Shown: one piece after another, positions 32,215-34,330 of the stretch
Layout of the letters: each line of letters starts with the position of its first letter
Position numbering within the stretch: the first letter of the stretch is position 1
Assembly: GCF_017495225.1 (NCBI RefSeq)
Contig: NZ_JAFEIG010000033.1
Location: 186,001-250,000 of the forward strand
From: Daejeonella sp.
Lineage (GTDB): Bacteria > Bacteroidota > Bacteroidia > Sphingobacteriales > Sphingobacteriaceae
Direction: 5' to 3'
Length of the DNA stretch: 64,000 bases
Notes under the pieces: model-generated
Databases searched by the model: none
What the model was told of the DNA's origin: nothing
The model's input: the letters and a program-made list of their open reading frames with translations, nothing else
Made by a program: the position numbers and the translations under genes

Positions 32215-32685
32215 TTAAAGCGTAATCTGTCTTTTGATGCTTTCCTCAAGCGATATCAATGTTTCAGTCCGCTGAATACCCTTTACCCCTTGAATGTCTT
32301 CATTTAGTACCTGCCTCAAGTGATTAGTATCTCTACAAATGATTTTAGCAAACATACTATAAGAACCTGTGGTATAGTGAAGTTCAACTACTTCTTTTAT
32401 TTTTTTGAGACTTTCTACTGCATCTTTGTATTGAGAACCTTTTTCGAGATAAATTCCCAAGAAAGCACAAATATCATATCCAATACGTTGAGGATCAATA
32501 ATTAAGTGAGAACCCTTAATGATGCCCATGTCCTGCATTTTCTTCATCCTGACATGTATAGTTCCTCCAGATACAATCAGTTTTTTTGCAATTTCTGTAT
32601 ATGGGATGGTAGCATCTTCCATGAGTATAGATAAAATCTGAGTGTCCAGATTGTCAAGTTCGAAATTTTGGCTACGATTTTCCAT
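32215..32685 (-). CDS. Lrp/AsnC family transcriptional regulator
   Basis: 156 residues. N-terminal helix-turn-helix (DTQILSILMEDATIPYTEIAKKLIVSGGTIHVRMKKM, residues about 13-50) and C-terminal RAM/AsnC ligand domain (YKDAVESLKKIKEVVELHYTTGSYSMFAKI). Such proteins form octamers and sense amino acids; the effector is unknown. It is transcribed away from the tRNA-like gene that begins 142 bases upstream. Confidence 0.9.
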   Translation of the reverse strand: MENRSQNFELDNLDTQILSILMEDATIPYTEIAKKLIVSGGTIHVRMKKMQDMGIIKGSHLIIDPQRIGYDICAFLGIYLEKGSQYKDAVESLKKIKEVVELHYTTGSYSMFAKIICRDTNHLRQVLNEDIQGVKGIQRTETLISLEESIKRQITL

Positions 32686-32826
32686 TTTTAATTAATGAAT
32701 TATTAATAATTGTGCAATATAATTATTGTTTACGTAAAAATTAAAATAGTTTATTAAAAGATTTGTAAAAAATAAGCCATTGATTTACATTTGATTAAGC
32801 AATCAATAAAAATGATTGTTTAGACA

Positions 32827-32940
32827 CTGTAGGGTGGTGAAATTTGGCAGACACACCTCCTCGTCTCGGTGGCGAAGATTTGGGAAATATCTTAACAGAG
32901 AAAAAACCGCTTCGTGAAGGTTCGAATCCTTCCCCTACAG
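32827..32940 (+). tRNA. tRNA-like RNA gene, class II shape with abnormal anticodon arm (copy 1)
   Basis: Acceptor stem TGTAGGG (32828-32834) / CCCTACA (32933-32939), extendable to 8 pairs by C32827-G32940. D arm GTG / CAC with a loop containing G18G19-like GG. T arm GAAGG / CCTTC with loop TTCGAAT. The anticodon stem CCTCC (32856-32860) / GGTGG (32868-32872) has a central T-T mismatch. Its loop TCGTCTC has C instead of the universal T33; read formally the anticodon is GTC, which does not suit the Leu-type D arm. The variable arm is a 5-pair stem CGAAG / CTTCG closing 32 bases, giving about 113 bases in total. No CCA is encoded. It may be a non-decoding tRNA relative rather than a translation tRNA. 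Confidence 0.6.
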
Positions 32941-32978
32941 CAAACCTTATTCAACAGGTTTATAATTGGTTAGTTTAG

Positions 32979-33008
32979 ATAAGCTCCTGCCCATCAGGAG
33001 CTTATTTA
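32979..33008 (+). terminator. hairpin terminator of tRNA-like copy 1
   Basis: Stem ATAAGCTCCTG (32979-32989) / CAGGAGCTTAT (32995-33005), loop CCCAT. Between it and the tRNA-like core is another small hairpin, AAACCT / AGGTTT (32942-32947, 32956-32961). The rest of the gap up to 33106 is AT-rich with nothing recognised. Confidence 0.7.
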
Positions 33009-33106
33009 TTTGATCTAATTTTTGAATTTTAACTTAATCATAAGATAGCCCCATTAAGAGTAATTCAATTTTTGCAGCGCGTAGATTTAATTATCTAAAT
33101 TGAATA

Positions 33107-33754
33107 TTATAACGAAAAATAATATTCAAAAACCTTAGCCAAATCTAAATTATTTTTAAAATCGATTTTTTCCTTCTTTAAATAACTATCAATTTCTAAA
33201 TTTTTGTCTTCGAAAATCATCAAAAACTCCTTTTTTGAAGGTTTAAAACGTTGCATATTGCCATCTTTAAGGATAAAATACGATTTAATGTCTTCATATT
33301 TCTTTTCTATAGTAGCCGAGTTGTATTGTTTATTTTCAAGAATTGTTTTGTAGTTCTTTACTAATAGTTTCATTTTGCCATCAGCTATTAAACCATAGAA
33401 GGTTTTATCTGTGAAGTTGTCAATGGCAGGTAAGCCATTTATATATTTGAGGCCTAATAATTCGAAATTTTTTACTGGGACTACAAAACTCAATAAAGAA
33501 CCATCTTTAGGGTTCTTAAAGTATAGTTCATCTTTAAAAATACTATATTTCAAGGGTATGTTTTCGTATTTATTGCCATTATTTAAAGTAACTTTCCCAT
33601 TGATAAATTCATTATTTAAAAATGGTGAACCAATAACATCGATAGCATTCTTTTCTATAAATGGTTTACCATCCACATCTTGAAGATACATTTGTCCGCT
33701 CGAGGATGTACTAATAAGAGCCGTTAATGCCAAGGCAATAATTATACTTTTCAT
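33107..33754 (-). CDS. hypothetical secreted protein
   Basis: 215 residues with a clear signal peptide (MKSIIIALALTALISTSSSG). The mature part is Lys/Asn/Phe-rich, predicted beta-strand followed by helix: YENIPLKYSIFKDELYFKNP, FVVPVKNFELLG, FYGLIADGKMKLLVKNYKT, EKKYEDIKSYFILKDG. No known domain was recognised. It lies between the two tRNA-like copies on the opposite strand, so it may have been caught inside the duplication or inserted between the copies. Confidence 0.65.
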   Translation of the reverse strand: MKSIIIALALTALISTSSSGQMYLQDVDGKPFIEKNAIDVIGSPFLNNEFINGKVTLNNGNKYENIPLKYSIFKDELYFKNPKDGSLLSFVVPVKNFELLGLKYINGLPAIDNFTDKTFYGLIADGKMKLLVKNYKTILENKQYNSATIEKKYEDIKSYFILKDGNMQRFKPSKKEFLMIFEDKNLEIDSYLKKEKIDFKNNLDLAKVFEYYFSL

Positions 33755-34103
33755 GTTATTTTTTTTAATTGTACAATTTATTTCTCGTTATACTTTCTAA
33801 TAAAAATACTCCTTTTAGAAATACATATCCAAATTTACTTCCAGATCTGCTATTTAATTTCTTTATAAAATAAAAACACTGGTTATTTATTTGCCTGCAC
33901 CCTTATAAAAATACATTTCATTTATTCTTTACCCTTCCCCCCCAATTAGTCGCTCCCCCTTTTGTTATCAAGTTCTAAATTTCTTATTTAAAATCTGTTT
34001 GTTGATTATGATATTTTTAAGAAATTTATTTTTTAATTGAAATATTTATAAAAATTAAATTTAATGATTAAAATATTTGCAAGAAATCAGTTGTTTGCTT
34101 ACA

Positions 34104-34133
34104 TTTGTATTAAGCAATCAGAAAATAATATTG
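34104..34133 (+). promoter_or_regulatory. promoter-like sequence of tRNA-like copy 2
   Basis: TTTG (34104-34107), 18-base spacer, TAATATTG (34126-34133), one mismatch from TAnnTTTG. A start 6-9 bases on would fall almost exactly at the first base of the acceptor stem (34142). Copy 1 has the same TTTG (32790-32793) but a weaker -7 element. Confidence 0.45.
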
Positions 34134-34141
34134 CTTACACA

Positions 34142-34255
34142 CTGTAGGGTGGTGAAATTTGGCAGACACACCTCCTCGTCTCGGTGGCGAAGATTTGGGA
34201 AATACCTTAACAGGGAAATAACTGCTTCGTGAAGGTTCGAATCCTTCCCCTACAG
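34142..34255 (+). tRNA. tRNA-like RNA gene, class II shape with abnormal anticodon arm (copy 2)
   Basis: Same fold as copy 1; 110 of 114 bases are identical. All four differences lie in the enlarged variable arm (copy 1 bases 32890, 32899, 32904, 32908). T32890-to-C and A32899-to-G fall opposite each other in a three-pair mini-hairpin with loop TAAC, so the pair is kept. Acceptor, D, anticodon and T arms are unchanged. This supports an RNA product under selection. Confidence 0.6.
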
Positions 34256-34293
34256 CAAACCACATTCAATAGGTTTATAATTGGTTAGTTTAA

Positions 34294-34330
34294 ATAAGCT
34301 CCTGCCCATCAGGAGCTTATTTTATTTTTA
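34294..34330 (+). terminator. hairpin terminator of tRNA-like copy 2
   Basis: Stem ATAAGCTCCTG (34294-34304) / CAGGAGCTTAT (34310-34320), loop CCCAT, followed by a T-rich run. Stem and loop are identical to copy 1. Confidence 0.8.

Follow-up and report, generated by a model that had tools for sequence, protein, structure and literature searches.

The 64,000-nucleotide stretch of Daejeonella sp. DNA analysed here (contig NZ_JAFEIG010000033.1, positions 186,001 to 250,000; the window) contains two near-identical genes for an RNA that has the shape of a tRNA and an anticodon loop that looks unfit for decoding, and the question is what such an RNA might do. We propose, with a probability of about 70%, that it is a carrier tRNA which does not decode but serves asparagine synthesis alone, acted upon by AspRS and then by GatCAB, and controlled by an AsnC-type regulator.

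Two tRNA-like genes and their surroundings

A preliminary description of the window had reported two 114-nt cores, 110/114 identical and offset by 1315 nt, and both were recovered on the forward strand (Table 1). The arms of a complete cloverleaf are present as described, with acceptor TGTAGGG/CCCTACA, D arm GTG/CAC, T arm GAAGG-TTCGAAT-CCTTC and an anticodon arm, CCTCC-TCGTCTC-GGTGG, that contains a T-T mismatch; neither copy encodes CCA. The acceptor stem, earlier given as seven or eight pairs, has seven, the additional 5′ C being position −1 and the G being position 73. The C noted at position 33 holds for the window copies but not for the family described below, in which C33 is mostly limited to the window's genus and about three-quarters of the members have U33. 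The minimum free energy of a single core was unremarkable when compared with shuffled sequences (z −0.8 to −1.0), and the structure was therefore tested by comparison of homologues.

Although the RNA has the canonical tRNA shape (a 7-bp acceptor, D, anticodon and T arms and a conserved elbow), ARAGORN called none of 157 family cores as a tRNA, and searches of the window copies against Rfam, at the gathering threshold and at E 10, gave chance hits only, with no match to the tRNA model RF00005 or to the tmRNA and tRNA-Sec models. The window copies are missed by both programs.

The terminator placed at the end of each copy proved to be a strong stem in both cases, and the region contains four terminator-like sites, compared with a mean of 0.7 in shuffled sequences. 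A promoter of the form TTTG-N18-TAATATTG had been proposed for both copies; it is found at copy 2, but copy 1 has only a loose match. TTTG occurs upstream of many homologues, and a search for a conserved operator upstream of the RNA homologues found no family-wide motif. The tail GGTTTATAATTGGTTAG and the terminator (32960-33008 and 34275-34322 in the window) are conserved in the Sphingobacteriaceae and remain upstream of asnC after loss of the core at loci L263, L266, L267, L268, L270 and L271; as they are retained there, they may have a function of their own.

Between the two copies lies a gene for a 215-aa secreted-looking protein (33107-33754, reverse strand), which has no Pfam or NCBIfam match and is absent from the other loci compared. 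A mobile element was considered as the source of the duplication and rejected, given that there is no conserved mobility gene and no plasmid match and that the copies form tandem arrays.

Table 1. Positions of the features of the tRNA-like genes and the neighbouring regulator in the window.
Feature	Position	Strand	Details	Basis
AsnC/Lrp-family regulator	32215..32685	-	divergent from copy 1	best NCBIfam hit AsnC, below cut-off
Probable promoter, copy 1	32790..32815	+	TTTG at 32790, weak -7 element	sequence only
tRNA-like RNA, copy 1	32827..32940	+	U1 at 32828, G73 at 32940; 32827 is position -1	covariance model, 119.5 bits
Anticodon loop TCGTCTC, copy 1	32861..32867	+	anticodon GTC 32863-32865, C38 at 32867, C33, T37	sequence, family comparison
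Long variable arm, copy 1	32873..32915	+	hairpin form, outer stem CGAAG/CTTCG	
Intrinsic terminator, copy 1	32976..33008	+	stem of 14 pairs; preceded by conserved tail GGTTTATAATTGGTTAG	
Bacteroidota-type promoter, copy 2	34104..34133	+	TTTG-N18-TAATATTG	sequence alone
Inverted repeat over copy 2 promoter	34111..34137	.	TAAGCAAT-N11-ATTGCTTA; possible AsnC operator, speculative	
tRNA-like RNA, copy 2	34142..34255	+	U1 at 34143, G73 at 34255	covariance model, 120 bits
Anticodon loop TCGTCTC, copy 2	34176..34182	+		sequence, family comparison
Long variable arm, copy 2	34188..34230	+		
Intrinsic terminator, copy 2	34292..34322	+	stem of 13 pairs; preceded by tail GGTTTATAATTGGTTAG	

An RNA family with aspartate and amidation determinants

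What had appeared to be a two-copy oddity turned out to be a widespread multicopy family. Of 200 related genomes searched at the DNA level, 87 contain homologues, with one to seven copies in each, often in tandem, some of the weakest matches spanning just part of the query. Matches to a covariance model, the search that the preliminary description had recommended, extend to many families of the class and to another class of the phylum. The family ranges over the Sphingobacteriales, Chitinophagales and Cytophagales, named records placing it in the Sphingobacteriaceae, Chitinophagaceae, Saprospiraceae, Cyclobacteriaceae, Spirosomaceae and relatives. Our literature search, which was thin on subscription papers and preprints, found no report of it.

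RNAalifold, applied to 36 diverse members, returned a full cloverleaf together with a variable-arm stem. Over 126 distinct homologues, pairing holds in 99.6% of the cells and double changes were seen at 14 pairs, a result matched by none of 500 shuffles. Fitting of the alignment to the model biases this test in its favour, but slid controls gave only 55-65%. Acceptor pairs 1-3 are nearly fixed, and pairs 4-7 covary. The RNA varies in length from 108 to 211 nt, almost all of this variation being accounted for by the variable arm, which is either a simple hairpin, the form found in both window copies, or a larger structure with a conserved GGGUUGACCAC. The larger form has a conserved AUA-n-GGGUUGACCAC-n-UUGU core, seen in 66 of 187 hits (L123, L140, L156, L169, L289 and others), which is perhaps a protein-binding site.

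Of the covariance-model hits only long ones were counted, short ones (76-87 nt, in hundreds of genomes) being left out. When 11 of the short hits were checked as candidate members, 10 were ordinary tRNA-Leu(GAG) and one (L244, in genome G177) was a relative of class I size, which has U1-A72, G73 and the anticodon AUC and which ARAGORN classes as tRNA-Asp(atc). A congener of that genome (G303) has the loop CTCTCTC and also encodes AsnA.

Five strong aspartate determinants have been described (G34, U35, C36, C38 and G73), and U1-A72 is a determinant for the amidation of Asp-tRNA by GatCAB, for which G1-C72 and U20a are antideterminants (PMC9976931). All five aspartate determinants and U1-A72 are present in 126 of 130 homologues; as loci fetched by a pattern containing GTCNC are biased for the loop, 26 rows fetched without the pattern serve as a control, and these have U1, A72, G73 and C38 in 26/26 and GTC in 24/26. 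The consensus of the anticodon loop is NUGUCUC. In 129 of 130 homologues no U follows G18G19, and the RNA has U1-A72 where the ordinary tRNA-Asp of the host has G1-C72, so that the amidation determinant is present and both antideterminants are absent. The anticodon GTC, at first judged not to belong with a D arm of the Leu type, is rather the key to the RNA, G34-U35-C36-C38 and G73 together being the aspartate identity set. Identity as a tRNA-Leu or tRNA-Ser does not fit, as G73 is found in 130/130 homologues, compared with A73 in tRNA-Leu, and the loop suits AspRS; the host encodes Leu and Ser tRNAs separately. Charging of the tRNA-Gln type was also considered and rejected: U1-A72, G2-C71 and G73 are shared with glutamine identity, whereas G34 and C36 conflict with it.

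Position 37 of decoding tRNAs is nearly always a purine. Among the 130 homologues it is a pyrimidine in 123 and a purine in seven, and position 33 is U in 101 and C or G in 29; the combination of U33 and purine 37 is thus not that of the family, and the window copies have C33. As U33 occurs in around three-quarters of the homologues, the case for exclusion from decoding depends chiefly on position 37 and the variable arm. The family thus retains the elements that AspRS and GatCAB are predicted to recognise, but not those that a ribosome would use. The RNA might instead be an unusual minor tRNA-Asp isoacceptor decoding GAC and GAU, as the GTC anticodon, G73, the frequency of U33 and the ARAGORN call on the class-I-sized relative would allow. 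We consider this very improbable: the host already has an ordinary tRNA-Asp(GTC), U1-A72 would let GatCAB yield Asn-tRNA for aspartate codons, purine 37 is found in only 7/130 homologues, C or G33 in 29/130, the variable region measures ~40-140 nt, and the association with GatB described below would be left unexplained.

Co-occurrence with GatB and the supply of asparagine

Alperstein et al. listed 67 genera, Bacteroidetes included, that have AsnRS, GlnRS and GatCAB; not all of these were explained, and the retention of GatCAB beside GlnRS and AsnRS was left open as 'maybe vestigial' (PMC4206432). If the RNA is such a carrier, genomes that have it should need GatCAB. We compared 73 genomes chosen from earlier scans, 42 with the RNA and 31 without it, scoring the presence of GatCAB by the GatB subunit alone. 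AsnRS is encoded in 73/73 of these genomes and GatB in 42/42 of those with the RNA. Where GlnRS and AsnRS are both encoded, GatCAB has no decoding duty; in such genomes GatB is found in 35/35 with the RNA vs 1/18 without it (Fisher 6e-13, a p-value that ignores kinship, the genomes being non-independent samples), and within the Sphingobacteriaceae alone in 19/19 vs 0/9. The genomes that lack both the RNA and GlnRS have GatB in 13/13 cases, as expected for Gln-tRNA, and in seven genomes with the RNA but without GlnRS, GatCAB is needed regardless.

In a tree of the AsnC proteins of the Sphingobacteriaceae, absence of the RNA is best explained by three losses, each in a lineage without GatB. The loss lineages keep a syntenic, orthologous AsnC (75-87% identity); in several the core is gone but the 3′ tail and the terminator persist, and one has a decayed core. 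In the sole genome with GlnRS, AsnRS and GatB but no RNA (G131), a single frame of 1120 aa (L331, G131:C19:17600-21300) spans both GatB and a second AspRS, an apparent natural amidotransferase-synthetase fusion.

Each genome with the RNA encodes one bacterial AspRS. The host enzyme has the motif RDLGG, as does that of Thermus thermophilus (1efw); the Pseudomonas aeruginosa enzyme (4wj3), annotated Asp/Asn, has RDHGG, the fused AspRS of G131 has RDHGD, and the other genomes with the RNA have Leu, Lys or Phe at the His/Leu position. This residue, we assume, separates Asp/Asn enzymes from discriminating ones, and the motif suggests that the host AspRS is discriminating and unable to load tRNA-Asn. 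With an AspRS probably so restricted, a separate acceptor with a GUC anticodon would help. The motif also bears on the suggestion that, as in Bdellovibrio, a relaxed AspRS loads ordinary tRNA-Asn, on which GatCAB then makes asparagine, the role of the RNA being unrelated and merely correlated with asparagine metabolism. Other bacteria do use such a route (PMC4206432), and the host tRNA-Asn does have U1-A72, but the Leu in the host AspRS is that of discriminating enzymes, and neither the exact set of aspartate and amidation determinants in the RNA nor the absence of GatB where the RNA is lost would be accounted for; we give this reading very little credence.

The distribution of asparagine synthetases was compared in the same genomes. 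E. coli-type AsnB (frames of ~550-580 aa) occurs, among the matches listed, only in genomes without the RNA, and AsnA is found in 2/42 genomes with the RNA and in four without it. Six genomes with the RNA have neither AsnA nor AsnB above the cut-off, and many have AsnB-like proteins of 590-680 aa, which could make asparagine.

At most Sphingobacteriaceae loci, and in other families, the AsnC-type gene and the RNA are transcribed divergently, and this gene stays while the other neighbours change between families; it is missing beside some loci, for example in the Cyclobacteriaceae. No AsnC gene adjoining asnB was found in genomes without the RNA. Copies without AsnC are carried by 36 IMG/VR contigs (L287-L322), many of them inside arrays of as many as 24 tRNAs, ordinary tRNA-Asp and tRNA-Asn among them. 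U1-A72, G2-C71 and G73 are retained even in phage copies whose acceptor stems otherwise differ considerably. A BLAST search also found the RNA, at 81 bits, beside other tRNAs in a 636-kb uncultured phage record (LR756504.1, L339).

These loci bear on whether the RNA is instead a regulatory RNA or decoy, an AsnC-controlled tRNA mimic that reports on or titrates AspRS/GatCAB or amino-acid status and is no biosynthetic carrier. The divergent AsnC gene, the RNA's own promoter and terminator and the 3′ tail that outlasts the core would all suit such a role, which we nevertheless think quite unlikely, as the acceptor end, the elbow and all aspartate and amidation determinants are conserved in a very divergent family, GatB is retained only alongside the RNA where decoding does not need it, and the phages have the RNA without AsnC. 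Of the uses first suggested for the RNA (aminoacyl donor, decoy or sRNA), the donor type, as a carrier, is therefore favoured over the other two. Its conservation, the loss of decoding features and the co-occurrence with GatCAB give good support to the view that it is tRNA-derived and acts outside decoding, probably as an aminoacyl carrier.

In the mechanism that we propose, CCA would be added to the RNA post-transcriptionally, and the host AspRS would load aspartate on it by reading G34, U35, C36, C38 and G73. GatCAB would amidate the bound aspartate to asparagine because the acceptor stem opens with U1-A72 instead of G1-C72, and the altered anticodon-loop positions and large variable arm would bar Asn-RNA from aspartate codons. 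Asparagine would then be freed for AsnRS and other uses, and the divergent AsnC-type regulator, with an effector assumed from its E. coli relative, would match production of the RNA to the supply of asparagine. We infer the addition of CCA, the loading and amidation of aspartate, the release of asparagine, the failure of the RNA to enter the ribosome and the control by AsnC; of these steps release is the weakest. The multicopy arrays would suit a demand for abundant RNA, without proving it.

Asn-RNA made in the same way by AspRS and GatCAB might instead donate its asparagine, through a transferase, to a precursor of a lipid, a peptide or the cell wall, with no free asparagine released. The identity elements and the GatB evidence fit this equally well, and non-ribosomal aminoacyl transfer has precedent in tRNAs such as staphylococcal tRNA-Gly. 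We judge it unlikely, however, as no transferase gene is conserved next to the RNA in the neighbourhoods compared, and the AsnC-type linkage and the exclusion of E. coli-type AsnB point to asparagine supply. With somewhat less assurance than for the carrier itself, we think it probable that this is a metabolic tRNA which holds the amino acid during the conversion of aspartate to asparagine and then releases it, is regulated by an asparagine sensor, replaces asparagine synthetase in much of the Bacteroidota and is borne by phages as an auxiliary metabolic RNA gene.

Relation to known systems

If correct, the carrier proposal answers why many bacteria with GlnRS and AsnRS retain GatCAB, separates amino-acid biosynthesis on tRNA from decoding and supplies metabolic models of the Bacteroidota with a missing asparagine pathway; the phage-borne copies may support host metabolism. 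The RNA gene family is widespread and was overlooked by the gene finders tried. On this proposal the RNA would be the only tRNA known to us whose purpose is to make an amino acid instead of using it.

The closest parallel is tRNA-dependent asparagine synthesis in Deinococcus, Thermus and Bdellovibrio, by a non-discriminating AspRS and GatCAB on tRNA-Asn: the same enzymes and chemistry are proposed here, the carrier has U1-A72, and AsnRS and GlnRS are also encoded. In those bacteria, however, the carrier is the decoding tRNA-Asn (GUU) and a relaxed AspRS is needed, whereas in Daejeonella a separate RNA, the proposed carrier, has the aspartate anticodon, for which a discriminating AspRS would be enough, and its loop and variable arm look unfit to decode.

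Allo-tRNAs, another possibility raised at first, are unusual bacterial tRNA-like genes with a long variable arm, some of them with GUC anticodons, and have an 8/4 or 9/3 acceptor/T-stem split (PMC7609411). The RNA differs from these in its 7/5 split, as counted from the helices, its conserved aspartate and amidation determinants and its chromosomal linkage to an AsnC-type gene, and the allo-tRNA assignment is not supported. Staphylococcal tRNA-Gly and the tRNA-Other of Bacillus cereus are tRNA paralogues specialised outside decoding; the former serves cell-wall bridges, whereas the present RNA would carry its amino acid while that is being made. The D arm and class II layout match those of the host tRNA-Leu, and the anticodon determinants and G73 match those of tRNA-Asp, but the RNA differs from both in being a blend of the two, with the U1-A72 of tRNA-Asn and tRNA-Gln and with variable arms of up to ~140 nt.
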